From assembly GCA_947503175.1 (NCBI GenBank), contig CANNCO010000003.1:379501-443500 (forward strand): a stretch of DNA of 64,000 nucleotides. Direction: 5' to 3'. The position numbers and the translations under genes are program-made. This DNA comes from an uncultured Paracoccaceae bacterium. Lineage in GTDB: Bacteria > Pseudomonadota > Alphaproteobacteria > Rhodobacterales > Rhodobacteraceae. Position 1 is the stretch's first letter; each line of letters starts with the position of its first letter. Of the stretch, positions 13,566-19,310 are shown piece by piece. The notes beneath the pieces are model-generated. The model did not search any database. It was not told the origin of the DNA and worked only from the letters and a program-made list of their open reading frames with translations.

Positions 13566-13880
13566 CTACATCTGAAGGATTTCGCACACTTCGACAGAAC
13601 CGGACCCATCCTTCACCATGGGACAGCCTTTCGCCATCTCGACAGCGGCATCCTGATCGGCGGCCTCGATGATCGACAGGCCGGCCACAGGATTGGCGCC
13701 TCCGTCATCGGCTACGCCGCCGGCACTTACGGTTCTCGACAGGCCCGCAGGCCCGCCGCCGTCCACGACCGCATCGCCCATGGCGCCGTACCATGCGTCC
13801 CAATCCGCCATGACCTTTTCGCCCTCCTCGGGCGTTTCGGGGCGTTTTCCCCCGTGATAGACAAACATGAACCTGGACAT
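13566..13880 (-). CDS. YciI-family (YCII-related) protein
   Basis: A 104-residue small protein with the dimeric alpha/beta-barrel fold of the YCII group: 'MSRFMFVYHGGKRPETPEEGE' at the N-terminus and 'ANPVAGLSIIEAADQDAAVEMAKGCP' in the second half. Relatives are often annotated as PhnB-like or sigma-factor-linked accessory proteins without a known reaction. It is the third gene of an ArsR / SRPBCC / YciI operon (1-bp gap to the SRPBCC gene). Confidence 0.8.
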   Translation of the reverse strand: MSRFMFVYHGGKRPETPEEGEKVMADWDAWYGAMGDAVVDGGGPAGLSRTVSAGGVADDGGANPVAGLSIIEAADQDAAVEMAKGCPMVKDGSGSVEVCEILQM

Positions 13881-13881
13881 G

Positions 13882-14334
13882 TCACACCTCCTCCTTGGCT
13901 TTGTTCTCGATCAATGCGCTCAGTTTCCGCAGGCTCGATGTCCAGCCGCTTTCGTGGTTCTGGGCTGCTTCATCGTCGGGCAGATCCACATGACTGAGCG
14001 TGAGATCCGTCCCGCCGCCCTGCGCGGGCACAAGGCGCATCGTCACATGGCTTTCGACGCCGCGCCGGTCGTTTTCGTCATGCCAGCCCCAGGTGAAACC
14101 GATCGAGTTCGGCGGGTCCACATGGGTCACATGGCCCGAAACCTTGAACCGTTGCCCTTCGGAATTGACCATCACAGAATACCAAGGGCCCTTGGCCTCG
14201 AAACTCATGTCATGCTCCGGCACCCAGAGCCCTTCAGGGCCCCACCATGTCAAAAGATGTTCGGTCTTCGAGATAAAATCGAACACGCGCTCGGGTGCGG
14301 CGCTGAAATGGCGCTCAATCGTAAGGTCCGTCAT
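13882..14334 (-). CDS. SRPBCC-domain (AHSA1-like) protein
   Basis: A 150-residue START-like ligand-binding fold of the AHSA1 group. It begins 'LTIERHFSAAPERVFDFISKTEHLLTWWGPEGL', the usual opening of bacterial proteins paired with ArsR regulators, and has 'GQRFKVSGHVTHVDPPNSIGFTWGWHDE' in the middle. Its start overlaps the ArsR stop by 4 bp. The ligand is unknown; the tight pairing with an ArsR regulator suggests that the two respond to the same signal or stress. Confidence 0.85.
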   Translation of the reverse strand: MTDLTIERHFSAAPERVFDFISKTEHLLTWWGPEGLWVPEHDMSFEAKGPWYSVMVNSEGQRFKVSGHVTHVDPPNSIGFTWGWHDENDRRGVESHVTMRLVPAQGGGTDLTLSHVDLPDDEAAQNHESGWTSSLRKLSALIENKAKEEV

Positions 14335-14669
14335 TCTCCGTCCTCCTCAAGTGCCGCGCCAAGACGATCAAGGCTTCCGGCCCAGAACGCCCGATACGAC
14401 ATCGTCCAGTGGCCGATGGCGCGCACCGTATCGGGCCGCGCCGCATAGATCCGCTGGGCACCGTCGATCCGCCGCGTGACCAGTCCCGCCTCGCGCAGGA
14501 CCTTCAGATGCCGCGACACGGCGGGGGCGGACACGTCGGTCAGACCCTGCAGGGTTCCCGCAGGCGCCTCTCCTTCCACCAGCAGATGCTCTAAGATCGC
14601 CAGCCGTGTGGGATCACCCAGGGCTGAAAAGGCCTTCGTTAGACCCGCATTGGTTTCATTTTCAATCAT
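14331..14669 (-). CDS. ArsR-family transcriptional regulator
   Basis: A 112-residue winged-helix repressor: 'TKAFSALGDPTRLAILEHLL' and 'LQGLTDVSAPAVSRHLKVLREAGLV' are the ArsR helix-turn-helix region, followed by a wing with 'TRRIDGAQRIYAARPD'. No cysteine pair of the metal-sensing types is present, so it belongs with the non-metal ArsR proteins that precede SRPBCC genes. It heads the ArsR / SRPBCC / YciI operon. A perfect inverted repeat lies 6 bp upstream of its start (14676-14691), a likely self-operator. Confidence 0.88.
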   Translation of the reverse strand: MIENETNAGLTKAFSALGDPTRLAILEHLLVEGEAPAGTLQGLTDVSAPAVSRHLKVLREAGLVTRRIDGAQRIYAARPDTVRAIGHWTMSYRAFWAGSLDRLGAALEEDGE

Positions 14670-14745: not shown

Positions 14746-15609
14746 ATGACCGGTACGCTTCTGTCTTTCGGCCACGGCTACTCCGCCCGCGCCCTTGCAC
14801 GGCTCCTGATCCCCCAGGGCTGGACGATCATTGGCACGACCCGCTCGACTGAAAAAGCCAGAAGACTATCGGACGACGGCGTGACGCCGCTGATCTGGCC
14901 GGGTGACGATCCTCGCCCCGCCGTCGAAACGGCCACCCATGTCCTGACATCCGTCTCACCGGGCCCGGATGGCGATCCGGTTCTCGCCGATCTCGCGGAT
15001 GCCTTGGCCCGGCGCGCACCGGCGCTGAAATGGGCAGGCTACCTTTCAACCACCGGTGTCTATGGCGACCATGCCGGCGGATGGGTGGATGAAGACACAC
15101 CTCTGACGCCCTCGACCGAACGCGGGCGCCTGCGTGTCCTGGCCGAAACCCAGTGGCGCGCGCTTGCCGAAACCTCTGGCCTCCCGCTCCATATCTTCCG
15201 GCTCGCGGGCATCTACGGCCCCGGCCGCGGCCCCTTTTCCAAGGTCCGGAACGGTACCGCCCGCCGCATCATCAAACCCGGACAGGTGTTTTCCCGCATC
15301 CATGTGGATGATATCGCACAGGTTCTTGCGGCCTCGATCGCGCACCCCAACCCGGGCGCGGTCTATAACCTCTGTGACGACGATCCAGCCCGGCCGCAGG
15401 ACGTGATCGCCCATGCCGCCGAACTTCTGGGCCAGCCGCTGCCGCCCGAAGTCGACTACGATACCGCAGATATGTCGCCCATGGCGCGGAGCTTCTACGC
15501 CGAATCCAAACGCGTCCGGAACGACCGGATCAAGTCGGAACTGGGGGTAGAGCTGATCCATCCCGACTACCGGGTCGGCCTTGCCGCACTTCTGGCGCAA
15601 GAGGACTAG
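14746..15609 (+). CDS. SDR / NAD-dependent epimerase-like protein (YeeZ type)
   Basis: A 287-residue protein with an N-terminal Rossmann fold. The glycine-rich motif is 'LLSFGHGYSARALARLL' (GxGxxA type), followed by 'WTIIGTTRSTEKARRL'. The active-site region 'LSTTGVYGDHAGGWVDE' and 'RLAGIYGPGRGPFSK' match extended SDR proteins of the YeeZ group. These have no firmly known reaction, but the pattern suggests a nucleotide-sugar or related NAD(P) substrate. It is divergent from the ArsR operon and overlaps the convergent AIG1-like gene by 4 bp. Confidence 0.8.
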   Translation: MTGTLLSFGHGYSARALARLLIPQGWTIIGTTRSTEKARRLSDDGVTPLIWPGDDPRPAVETATHVLTSVSPGPDGDPVLADLADALARRAPALKWAGYLSTTGVYGDHAGGWVDEDTPLTPSTERGRLRVLAETQWRALAETSGLPLHIFRLAGIYGPGRGPFSKVRNGTARRIIKPGQVFSRIHVDDIAQVLAASIAHPNPGAVYNLCDDDPARPQDVIAHAAELLGQPLPPEVDYDTADMSPMARSFYAESKRVRNDRIKSELGVELIHPDYRVGLAALLAQED

Positions 15610-16208
15610 GTCCGTCGTCGCAAGGCCGCTGCCAAACCCCAGAAAACAGCCAGCGCCCCCAAACCGATCACCGCCGTCATCCCATAGAACTGCAGCCGCT
15701 CGACGGGTTCCATGTTATTCAGAAACGGATAGGGCAGCCCGCTGGTCACGCTTCCGAAAGGATAGCTGTTGGCCGGCGCGACGAACCCCTCGACCCAGCC
15801 CAGATACAGAACGACAAGCGCGAAATAGGGCAGAACCACCCGCAAGGGCCGCCGAAACCCGCCATAGAGGAACAACGCATCGATCCACTGCAGAAGCGGC
15901 CCCAGACCGTGCAGATACCCGTCCAGCCACCACGGCAACGGTCCGCTTGAGTTCACCAGCGCCGGATCCTGCAGCCACAGCCGCCAATACATGCCAACGG
16001 CCAGCGCGTTGACGATCGCCGTCACCATCACCAGCCGCGGCCATTGCAAGTCACTCCGCCGCTCCGACAGGGCCAGCATCCGGCTCGCACAAAAGAAGCT
16101 CAGAAGAAGCCCCCAGATCGTCAGAAACCGGAACGGCCCGCCGGGATGCGAGTAATCGGCGACCACAACGATCTGGCGCAGCACAAACCCCGCGGCCAGC
16201 AGAAACAC
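15606..16208 (-). CDS. AIG1/ADTRP (FAR-17a)-like membrane protein
   Basis: A 200-residue protein with about six membrane helices. It lines up, from memory, with the human lipid hydrolase AIG1: 'GGPFRFLTIWGLLLSFF' matches the region of its catalytic threonine, 'WWLDGYLHGLGPLLQ' that of its catalytic histidine, and 'YPFLNNMEPVERLQFYG' its conserved YPFL...R..F block. AIG1 and ADTRP cleave fatty-acid esters of hydroxy fatty acids. The GTG at 16208 gives 200 residues but cuts the first helix; the frame stays open upstream, where a CTG (16262) overlapping the dxs stop would add 18 residues. It follows dxs directly, so it is probably the last gene of that operon. The bacterial substrate is unknown. 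Confidence 0.75.
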   Translation of the reverse strand: MFLLAAGFVLRQIVVVADYSHPGGPFRFLTIWGLLLSFFCASRMLALSERRSDLQWPRLVMVTAIVNALAVGMYWRLWLQDPALVNSSGPLPWWLDGYLHGLGPLLQWIDALFLYGGFRRPLRVVLPYFALVVLYLGWVEGFVAPANSYPFGSVTSGLPYPFLNNMEPVERLQFYGMTAVIGLGALAVFWGLAAALRRRT

Positions 16209-16258
16209 AATCCAGCGAAAAACCAGAACCGGCCTGGAATGCGGATCGACCGGGAAAT

Positions 16259-18187
16259 TCAGGCGCGTTTCTCCAGCGTCTCGACCCCAAGCACCGAAAG
16301 CACTTTCGACTCGATATCGGACGCGGCAAGACCGGCGATCTCATACATCGCCGCAGGGCTCGCCTGATCGATGAACGTATCGGGCAGGACCATCGACCGG
16401 TACTTCAGCGCCCCCGCATCCATCACCCCTTCGTCGAACAAAAGCTGCGCCACATGGCTGCCAAACCCGCCAACAGCACCCTCTTCGACAGTGATCATGG
16501 CCTCATGCTCTTGCGCCAGACCCACGATCAGATCCCGGTCCAGCGGTTTGGCGAACCGCGCATCCGCCACCGTCACCGATACACCCCGCGCGTCAAGCGC
16601 CTCGGCGGCCGCCATCACCTCGGCAAGCCGCGTGCCGAAAGACAGGATCGCAACGCGCGATCCCTCACGCATCACCCGGCCCTTGCCGATCTCAAGCGGC
16701 ACGCCCCGGTCGGGCAGTTCCACGCCCGCCCCCTCGCCGCGCGGATAGCGGAAGGCAATCGGACCGTCATCATGCCGCACCGCCGTGGCCACCATATGCC
16801 GCAACTCGGCCTCATCCGCCGCCGCCATCACGACAAATCCGGGAAGACAGGACAGGAAAGCGACGTCGAAGGCCCCGGCATGGGTCGCGCCATCCGCCCC
16901 CACCAGACCGGCCCGATCGATGGCAAACCGCACGGGCAACCGCTGGATCGCCACATCATGGACGACCTGATCGTAGCCGCGCTGAAGAAACGTCGAATAT
17001 ATTGCGCAGAAGGGCCGCATTCCGCCGGCGGCAAGCCCTGCGCTGAACGTCACCGCATGCTGCTCGGCAATCCCCACATCGAAACACCGGCTGGGATAGC
17101 GCGCCCCGAACCGGTCCAGCCCGGTCCCGTCCGGCATCGCCGCCGTCACGGCCACGATGCGGTCATCCTCGGCCGCCTCCTGAATCAGGCTCTCGGCAAA
17201 AACGCTGGTATAGGACGGTGCGTTCGACGGCGCTTTCTTCTGTTCGCCCGTGATCACATCGAACTTGGACACCCCGTGGCCCTTGTCCCGCGCCTGCTCT
17301 GCCGGGCCATAGCCATGCCCCTTCTTGGTGATCGCGTGGATCAGGATCGGCCCGGTGGCCCTCTCCTTCACCGTCCGCAACACCGGCAGAAGCTGCCCCA
17401 GATCATGCCCGTCAATCGGCCCGAGATACGAGAACCCAAGCTCCTCGAACAGCGTCCCGCCCACGGTCATATGCTTCAGCATATCCTTGGCCCGCCGCGC
17501 GCCCTCCTGAAACGGCTCGGGCAACAGGCTGACCGCCCCCTTCGCCGCCGATTTCAACTCCTGAAACGGCGCCCCGGCATAAAGACGGCTCAGATAGGAC
17601 GACATCGCCCCAACGGGCGGCGCAATGCTCATTTCGTTGTCGTTCAGAATGACGATCAGCCGCTTGCCCAGATGGCCCGCATTGTTCATCGCCTCATAGG
17701 CCATGCCGGCGCTCATCGCGCCGTCCCCGATCACCGCAATCGCATCGCCCAGCCCATGCTCGGGCGCACCGCCCAGATCGCGCGCCACGGCAAAGCCCAA
17801 GGCGGCACTGATCGACGTACTGCTATGGGCCGCACCGAACGGATCATAGGGGCTTTCCGACCGCTTGGTGAACCCGCTCAAGCCGTCCTGCTTGCGCAGG
17901 GTCCGGATCCGGTCGCGTCGCCCGGTCAGGATCTTGTGCGGATAACACTGGTGGCTCACGTCCCAGACGATCCTGTCACGCGGCGCGTCAAAGATCGCGT
18001 GCAGCGCGACCGTCAGTTCCACGACGCCAAGCCCCGCGCCCAGATGCCCGCCGGTTTCGCTCACCGCACTGATCGTCTCGGCCCGAAGCTCGCGCGCAAG
18101 CTGGCCCAGCTCGGCATCGCTCAGGCCCTTCATGTCGGCGGGCACATTGATCCGGTCCAGAAGCGGTGTTGCCGGTCGTTCACTCAT
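16259..18187 (-). CDS. dxs: 1-deoxy-D-xylulose-5-phosphate synthase
   Basis: First enzyme of the MEP isoprenoid pathway; joins pyruvate and glyceraldehyde 3-phosphate using thiamine diphosphate. The 642-residue length is normal. Family blocks seen are '[18 protein letters not shown]', '[17 protein letters not shown]', the thiamine-binding '[20 protein letters not shown]', and '[15 protein letters not shown]' with its catalytic glutamate. It lies 17 bp after ispA in the same direction, so precursor and prenyl chain synthesis are co-expressed. Its need for thiamine diphosphate makes the nearby thiBPQ genes notable, though that may be chance. Confidence 0.97.
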
Positions 18188-18204: not shown

Positions 18205-19071
18205 TTACAGGTCGCGGGCAATAACGAACCGAGCCGCATCCCGCAAGGTTTCTGCCGCAGGTCCGTAAGGCTCCAGCGCCGCCTCGGCCTCCTGAACCAG
18301 CGCCGCGGCCCGGGCTCGCGCGCCCTCCAGTCCCAGAAGCGAAACGAAGGTCGCCTTGCCCGCGCCCTCGTCCTTGTGAAGCCGCTTTCCCGCTGTCGCC
18401 TCATCGCCCACAACGTCCAAGATGTCGTCCGCGATCTGAAAGGCCAGCCCAAGCGCATGGGCATAGTGCCGCAAGGGCGCCGGATCGGCACCGCCCATGA
18501 TCGGCCCGGCAATCGCAGACCATTCGATCAGCGCCCCGGTCTTGTTCCCTTGCAACTCGGTAACGTCCTCAAGCCCCAGCGCCCGGCCCGCCGTCTCCGC
18601 GGCAATATCCTGCGCCTGCCCCAGAACCATCCCCTGCGCGCCCGACGCACGCGCCAGACTGGCGACCAGCTCGACCCGCCGCTCCGCGGGCAGGTCCATT
18701 CCCGCCAGACATTCAAACGCGAGCGTCTGAAGCGCATCGCCCACCAGAACCGCCGTCGCCTCATTCCATTTCACATGAACAGTAGGATGCCCCCGCCGCA
18801 AATCGTCATCGTCCATACACGGCAGATCGTCATGGACGAGGCTATAGGCATGAAGCGCCTCGATTGCCACCGCCGCAGCCCGTGCAACCTCTGTACCGAC
18901 CCCATGCAGCCCGGCCCCCTCGATCACCAGGAACCCGCGCAGCCGCTTGCCCCCCGACAAGGCATAGCGCATCCCCTCGGCCACGCTATCGCCACCGAAA
19001 CGCGCCAGAACAGTGTCTATTTCAGCCTGAATCTCCGCTGCACGCTCCGACAGCCGCGCCCGGAACGTCAC
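18205..19071 (-). CDS. ispA: Polyprenyl (farnesyl) diphosphate synthase
   Basis: Builds farnesyl (C15) diphosphate from IPP and DMAPP. Both aspartate-rich motifs are present: '[16 protein letters not shown]' (first, about residues 85-100) and '[13 protein letters not shown]' (second). '[10 protein letters not shown]' binds diphosphate. I set the start at the GTG at 19071 because it overlaps the xseB stop as GTGA and gives 288 residues, the normal IspA length; the longer open frame reads into xseB. It sits between xseB and dxs in one operon. Confidence 0.93.
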
Positions 19072-19310
19072 GATGCCTCGAACGGTTCGGTCCCTTTCGG
19101 CGTGCCATCGGCATCCAGCGTAATGGCGGCCACTTTCTCTTCGGCATCCTTCAGACGCGCCTCGCAATGGGCCTTCAGCGCCGCCCCACGTTCATAGAGC
19201 TTGATCGACGCATCCAGTTCGACATTCCCACTATCCAGCTGACCCACGATCGACTCCAGCTCGCGCATCGCCTGTTCGAATGTCATCTCTGCAATCGGTG
19301 TGTCGGTCAT
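19068..19310 (-). CDS. xseB: Exodeoxyribonuclease VII small subunit
   Basis: An 80-residue protein with the XseB pattern 'MTFEQAMRELESIVGQLDSGNVELDASIKLYERGAALKAHCEARLKDAEEKV', which forms a helical hairpin. Several small subunits coat one XseA large subunit to degrade single-stranded DNA. xseA itself is not in the window. The start overlaps the HDAC-like stop by 4 bp and the stop overlaps ispA's GTG by 4 bp, so translation of all three is coupled, a gene order common in this group. Confidence 0.92.
   Translation of the reverse strand: MTDTPIAEMTFEQAMRELESIVGQLDSGNVELDASIKLYERGAALKAHCEARLKDAEEKVAAITLDADGTPKGTEPFEAS

Follow-up and report, generated by a model that had tools for sequence, protein, structure and literature searches.

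A FAR-17a/AIG1 family membrane protein encoded behind dxs in an uncultured Paracoccaceae bacterium, with a probable CTG start

Human AIG1 and ADTRP are atypical threonine hydrolases that act on fatty-acid esters of hydroxy fatty acids (FAHFAs). Passages of PMC8123165 report that T43 and H134 of AIG1 are needed for FAHFA hydrolysis; a passage of PMC8394805 prints a different number for the AIG1 histidine. An ATGY superfamily is named in an excerpt of PMC12345273, which places the lipoprotein acetyltransferase LhaT there with TMEM164. A literature search on bacterial AIG1, ADTRP and Far-17a found no bacterial AIG1-family enzyme described in the titles or abstract beginnings that it listed. The subject here is an AIG1-like gene in a 64,000-nucleotide stretch of DNA from an uncultured Paracoccaceae bacterium (contig CANNCO010000003.1; the whole stretch analysed is called the window), where it lies behind dxs, the gene for 1-deoxyxylulose-5-phosphate synthase. 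The explanation that best fits the evidence as a whole, held with moderate confidence, is that its product would be a periplasm-facing threonine/histidine acyl-ester hydrolase or transferase translated from a CTG codon.

Family membership and conserved residues

A search with the Pfam FAR-17a/AIG1 profile (PF04750) matched the window protein at 43.3 bits against a curated cut-off of 24.5 (E 3.7e-11), over profile positions 29-198 of 206, and PF04750 was the only Pfam family reported for it at E up to 10. NCBIfam models gave no match to the window protein. All 54 members of alignment A2, the window included, match PF04750; one of them additionally matches LtrA, weakly (E 0.0039). On this profile evidence the window protein is almost certainly a member of the FAR-17a/AIG1 family and, because Pfam's own model covers that family, it is by the same measure not a new kind of system. 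A sequence-only reading of the window had assigned the gene to the AIG1 family from its motifs. The profile match, far above the cut-off, bears this out, and the frame, the coordinates and the motifs FLTIWGLLL, WLDGYLH and YPFL...R..F are present letter for letter. The gene and its main residues are as follows.

15606..16262, reverse strand: gene for an AIG1-like membrane protein, read from CTG through 218 codons and a stop; PF04750 E 3.7e-11; AlphaFold2 (AF2) model with a predicted local distance difference test score (pLDDT) of 92 and six long helices
16119..16121, reverse strand: T48, counterpart of AIG1 T43 by profile alignment to human AIG1; present in 59 of 60 loci
15909..15911, reverse strand: H118, counterpart of AIG1 H134 by the same alignment; 60 of 60 loci
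15789..15791, reverse strand: E158, invariant (60 of 60 loci); Cys at the aligned place in human AIG1
15717..15719, reverse strand: N182 of YPFLN, invariant (60 of 60 loci); Glu in human AIG1

Residue counts were taken over 60 loci, comprising the window, 58 other genomes and a second copy in one of these (G193); G406, which was not fetched, and G407 (L093), not recovered by phmmer, are absent from this set, both being among the 61 genomes with a match. G170, G175, Y178 and F180 are each present in 60 of 60 loci, like H118, E158 and N182, and T48, H118, E158 and N182 are all invariant in the 54 A2 sequences. The single exception at T48 is a gap in L070 (G280), where the AIG1-like gene is interrupted by a stop codon (TAG) in an otherwise conserved locus. 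Two proteins from other families of the class (L174 and L175) show the same pattern of Thr, YLH or YIH, Glu and PYPFLN. Judged from these invariant residues, the gene is kept by selection.

The human AIG1 sequence used for alignment carries threonine at position 43 and histidine at position 134, in agreement with PMC8123165. When a profile of the 60 loci was aligned to it (17.0 bits, E 1.4e-7 in a single-sequence search), T43 was paired with T48 and H134 with H118, so that the catalytic-type threonine and histidine pointed out in the sequence-only reading hold up. Acyl-ester chemistry by this pair is probable on the conservation seen, and fatty-acid ester hydrolysis may be inferred from family and residues.

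Predicted fold and translation start

The AF2 model of the window protein (mean pLDDT 92, predicted template modelling score (pTM) 0.89) has six helices, predicted at residues 10-34, 47-66, 75-98, 111-133, 139-164 and 186-217. A second member modelled in the same way has the same six-helix arrangement (pLDDT 88.8). T48 and H118 are each close to the end of a helix, and both are predicted to face one side of the membrane. Mean counts of lysine plus arginine over 60 homologues were 2.0 at the N-end, 2.7 in loop 2-3, 2.9 in loop 4-5 and 3.3 at the C-end, and 1.1, 0.5 and 0.7 in loops 1-2, 3-4 and 5-6. With the positive charges at both ends and in loops 2-3 and 4-5, the positive-inside rule would turn the conserved residues, at the opposite helix ends, towards the periplasm; this charge pattern makes a periplasmic placement fairly likely.

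The frame lacks an ordinary start codon near its expected beginning, and three elements have to be considered.

16260..16262, reverse strand: proposed CTG start codon, overlapping the TGA of dxs as CTGA
16271..16274, reverse strand: GGAG, a possible ribosome-binding site 8 nt before the CTG
16206..16208, reverse strand: GTG, first canonical start codon of the frame; a start here would cost the protein residues 1-18, of which nine belong to helix 1 (10-34)

From the in-frame upstream stop to T48, the only codons of the ATG/GTG/TTG set are GTGs, at 29, 21 and 15 codons before T48. Between the upstream stop and residue 8, the codons one base from ATG are only CTG (codon 1) and ACG (codon -1). The CTG (16262-16260) overlaps the dxs stop (16261-16259). 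Among 113 distinct sequences (window counted, identical sequences merged, no protein recovered by the script in L070, L078, L093 and L096), an ATG lies 36-51 codons before the conserved threonine in 102, only GTG or TTG in eight, and none of the three in three. The window and L067 are two of these last three, and both have an in-frame CTG whose overlap with the dxs stop reads CTGA, 47 codons ahead of the threonine in the window and 46 in L067; dxs often ends in GCC TGA, however, which makes CTGA common, and the right frame would arise by chance about one time in three. The same overlap occurs as ATGA in L051, L146 and L152 and as GTGA in L132.

By comparison with these relatives, CTG 16262 is very probably the translation start. 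It had been pointed out from the letters alone that the frame offers only GTG 16208 or the CTG overlapping the dxs stop, and that the CTG would restore helix 1; both points agree with the survey, as GTG 16208 would cut helix 1, relatives start nearby and L067 has the same CTGA. A 200-residue protein beginning at GTG 16208 has in its favour that this is the first canonical start of the frame, and is nevertheless very improbable. It would forfeit residues 1-18, including R16 (54 of 54 sequences in A2, 55 of 60 loci) and the nine helix 1 residues; residues 6-18 align with relatives; and 110 of the 113 distinct sequences have an ATG, GTG or TTG 36-51 codons before the threonine. A precedent is given in passages of PMC11983097 on FIB plasmids of E. 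coli, where a demonstrated CTG start had likewise been misannotated as a downstream GTG; for nearly 85,000 genes the same text quotes a total of 20 CTG starts. With CTG as the probable start here, gene calling restricted to ATG, GTG and TTG would miss the front part of a membrane helix.

Two further loci touch on start codons. L067 is a second case of a probable CTG start in a dxs overlap. L056 (G200) has no ATG, GTG, TTG or CTG 36-51 codons before the threonine, and ATT or ATC may be its start.

Distribution and gene order

PF04750 was matched in 61 of 394 genomes of Rhodobacteraceae, 60 of them above the cut-off. In a sample of the class it was matched in four of 289 genomes, two of which (the window included) come from the window's own family; in a sample of the phylum it was matched in three of 200, two being the same as in the class sample and the third a short stretch with stops. 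Among 14 control genomes only Caulobacter vibrioides gave a match, and the other genome of the window's genus has no AIG1-like gene. Among the best 80 of 202 relatives from named genomes are copies in Tateyamaria, Yoonia, Loktanella, Flavimaricola, Shimia and Marivivens. The trait is patchy and, among the samples taken, commonest in Rhodobacteraceae. One genome (G193) holds two copies, one behind dxs and the other elsewhere (L053, L054).

The immediate neighbours in the window are these.

16259..18187, reverse strand: dxs, named by recognition
18205..19110, reverse strand: ispA-like polyprenyl synthase gene, start uncertain (Pfam polyprenyl_synt, 7.4e-50)
14746..15609, forward strand: NAD-dependent epimerase-like gene, a convergent and conserved neighbour (Pfam Epimerase, 5.5e-10), convergent in 42 of 59 loci

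Neighbourhood counts come from 59 loci other than the window, with flanks of about 8 kb to either side as far as the contig reached; dxs, xseB and regulators at these loci were named by recognition. Upstream on the same strand lies dxs in 43 of the 59 loci, and ispA and xseB-like genes are found in 42. The distance from the dxs stop to a nominal start, set 42 codons before the threonine, was measured in 57 of 60 loci and in 79 of 80 loci from the named genomes, two sets that share species. It was at most 150 nt in 27 of the 57, 151-1500 nt in 10 and 1501-5000 nt in four, with dxs further off, absent or on the other strand in the remaining 16; the same classes held 43, 10, 13 and 13 of the 79. 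Distances between AIG1-like proteins and between the corresponding Dxs proteins are correlated over 43 loci (Spearman 0.52, a value reached by 0 of 999 permutations), and of the two proteins the AIG1-like one changes faster. A Dxs match was found in 27 of the 27 genomes searched. Remnants of the AIG1-like gene were sought at 27 Dxs loci, of which 25 come from genomes that lack the gene and the other two from G337 and G405; three matches had E<0.01, the best 0.002, and the two best fall at the end of dxs. The epimerase gene abuts dxs in three of the eight such loci where it was found, with gaps of 1, 7 and -3 nt. Promoter- and terminator-like patterns between 14500 and 22000 numbered 2 and 6, against 1.4 and 5.0 in shuffles.

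This arrangement of genes is old and has for the most part been passed on as a unit, though it is not required. The sequence-only reading had seen in the place behind dxs a hint of a lipid-related role within an isoprenoid operon. The place itself stands (43 of 59 loci); the isoprenoid hint is weak, since dxs lies 151-5000 nt off in 14 of 57 loci and is unlinked in 16, and since G337 (L079) and G405 (L091) keep the gene behind ispA without dxs, their best remaining Dxs being beside reaction-centre genes. A somewhat favoured alternative is that the place behind dxs is inherited gene order, with no isoprenoid tie, and that the protein serves an unrelated acyl-lipid task. Moved copies adjoin beta-oxidation and other genes: one (L080) belongs to a row of genes on one strand that includes thiolase, enoyl-CoA hydratase, 3-hydroxyacyl-CoA dehydrogenase, epimerase-like and AMP-binding (acyl-CoA synthetase-like) genes, and such a beta-oxidation-type row would fit an acyl-lipid task. 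In a tree in which many forks are unsupported, each of the two groups parted by the midpoint root contains copies labelled as moved (11 of 21 in one, 4 of 38 in the other). Set against this alternative are the persistence of the dxs-adjacent order in distant genera and the short gap in nearly half of the loci measured (27 of 57).

Beyond the epimerase-like gene, window positions 13566-14669 hold three small genes on one strand, ArsR-like, SRPBCC-like and YCII-like by recognition. Relatives of these also lie downstream in L049, L071, L072 and L086.

Proposed function, alternatives and known systems

The gene product is most likely, as predicted from family and residues, a membrane acyl-ester hydrolase or transferase. 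It would be a FAR-17a/AIG1 family enzyme that crosses the inner membrane with six helices, and its translation would re-initiate at CTG 16262, where the dxs stop overlaps. The nucleophile would be T48, which stands where helix 2 begins, and the base would be H118 in helix 4; the conserved GLPYPFLN stretch, together with E158 and N182, would complete a pocket at the periplasmic face, where the acyl ester of a lipid would be cleaved or its acyl group moved.

The substrate class is a guess, and a doubtful one: acyloxyacyl aminolipids such as ornithine and glutamine lipids. They are a plausible class, with an ester bond of the FAHFA type. Passages of PMC7766670 describe FAHFA-type ester bonds in the acyloxyacyl ornithine lipids of bacteria, and excerpts of PMC8319176 state that roseobacters make ornithine, glutamine and sulphur aminolipids. 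PF13444, the family of OlsB, was found in all 60 genomes tested (32 carriers of the AIG1-like gene and 28 non-carriers); an aminolipid substrate is accordingly likely to be present, which is no proof of its use. OlsB-type genes were set aside as a specificity marker. It is similarly unlikely that this bacterial AIG1 branch consists of periplasm-facing threonine/histidine enzymes that remove or move the acyl chain of acyloxyacyl aminolipids, or use prenyl-lipid esters as LhaT does. If the proposal is true, the gene would encode a lipid-remodelling step translationally coupled to dxs through a CTG start inside CTGA. The branch is a candidate for the turnover of bacterial acyloxyacyl lipids and, being small and having the same residues as AIG1 and ADTRP, could offer a simple system for the mechanism of threonine hydrolases; no solved chain matches its profile. 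The bacterial branch, the CTG start and the predicted outside-facing site are points worth testing.

Several observations weigh against this proposal. E158 and N182 are invariant in the bacterial set yet differ in AIG1, and the chemistry may therefore differ. The task is dispensable, as 333 of the 394 family genomes have no PF04750 match. PF13444 is also present in 28 of 28 tested genomes without the gene, and therefore does not single out a substrate. Among the titles and abstract beginnings that it listed, the literature search found no activity report for a bacterial AIG1-family member, LhaT being a relative only. Structural comparison is equivocal as well. For the window model VIA-align, which aligns only chains preselected by Foldseek, ranked substrate-bound TMEM164 (9lw1) first, at Z 12.3 and a root-mean-square deviation of 3.3 over 181 of 218 residues, with the next row at 7.6; helical bundles can reach Z values of up to about 13 through a common arrangement, without kinship. 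TMEM164 was not among the 50 entries shown for the model of the second homologue (L173), where the best had Z 9.8 over 120 residues, and Foldseek against the PDB gave no match under E 0.001 for either model. Sequence searches of solved chains with A1 (E limit 1) and A2 (E limit 10) gave no match.

Within the proposed acyl-ester chemistry, the protein might, in the manner of TMEM164 or of LhaT from Bacillus, be an acyl transferase rather than a hydrolase. It would then pass an acyl or acetyl group from one lipid to another, or take it from a prenyl-lipid ester and deliver it to an acceptor outside the membrane. That TMEM164 is the top fold match of the window model speaks for it, as does the predicted outside-facing site. 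Linkage to ispA and dxs is common, and under a transferase reading the place in an isoprenoid operon would have meaning. AIG1 and TMEM164 share a superfamily. According to passages of PMC12345273, acetyl-heptaprenylglycerol is used by LhaT, and the outer leaflet is the proposed place of this use. An excerpt of PMC13276253 describes TMEM164 as dependent on a cysteine, however, whereas the conserved residue here is a threonine, as in AIG1 and ADTRP. The window protein has no Pfam match besides PF04750, the dxs linkage is not strict, and the TMEM164 match did not recur among the entries shown for the second model. A transferase is on balance rather unlikely.

A service to phototrophs, such as the cleavage of carotenoid or other pigment-lipid esters, is highly doubtful: the association is weak and uncorrected for kinship. 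Carriers are modestly enriched in reaction-centre genes (35 of 61 carriers against 130 of 333 non-carriers, Fisher p 0.011, with G347 left out for a match under the cut-off) and in rhodopsin genes (4 of 26 carriers against 1 of 54 non-carriers, p 0.036, in the 80 genomes without reaction-centre genes over the cut-off), and 26 of the 61 carriers have no reaction-centre match over the cut-off. Carotenoid synthesis was tried as a correlate and rejected as uninformative, PF00494 being present in 78 of 80 genomes, the two lacking it also being without the gene.

The proposed periplasm-facing acyl-ester enzyme can be set beside four described systems. The rep gene of FIB plasmids resembles it in having a CTG start with a downstream GTG taken for the start (14 codons on there, 18 here); it is an unrelated gene and, according to passages of its source, its CTG was shown by N-terminal analysis and mutation, where the present one rests on comparison. 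LhaT (YpjA) of Bacillus, a DUF1405 protein, is described in the excerpt noted above as a membrane protein with six predicted helices, its proposed place of action being the outer leaflet; the window protein differs in having no DUF1405 match, only PF04750 being found at E up to 10. TMEM164, an ether-phospholipid acyltransferase, came first when the window model was compared by fold (Z 12.3 over 181 residues), but no solved chain is matched by sequence, TMEM164 was not shown for the second homologue, and the cysteine dependence described for it in the excerpt contrasts with the conserved threonine of the bacterial set. Human AIG1 and ADTRP differ from the bacterial set in that the latter has E158 and N182 as invariant residues and is about nine residues longer ahead of PYPFLN. 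They share with it the profile family PF04750, the corresponding threonine and histidine, the YPFL motif and six helices, the number predicted for ADTRP in a passage of PMC8123165.

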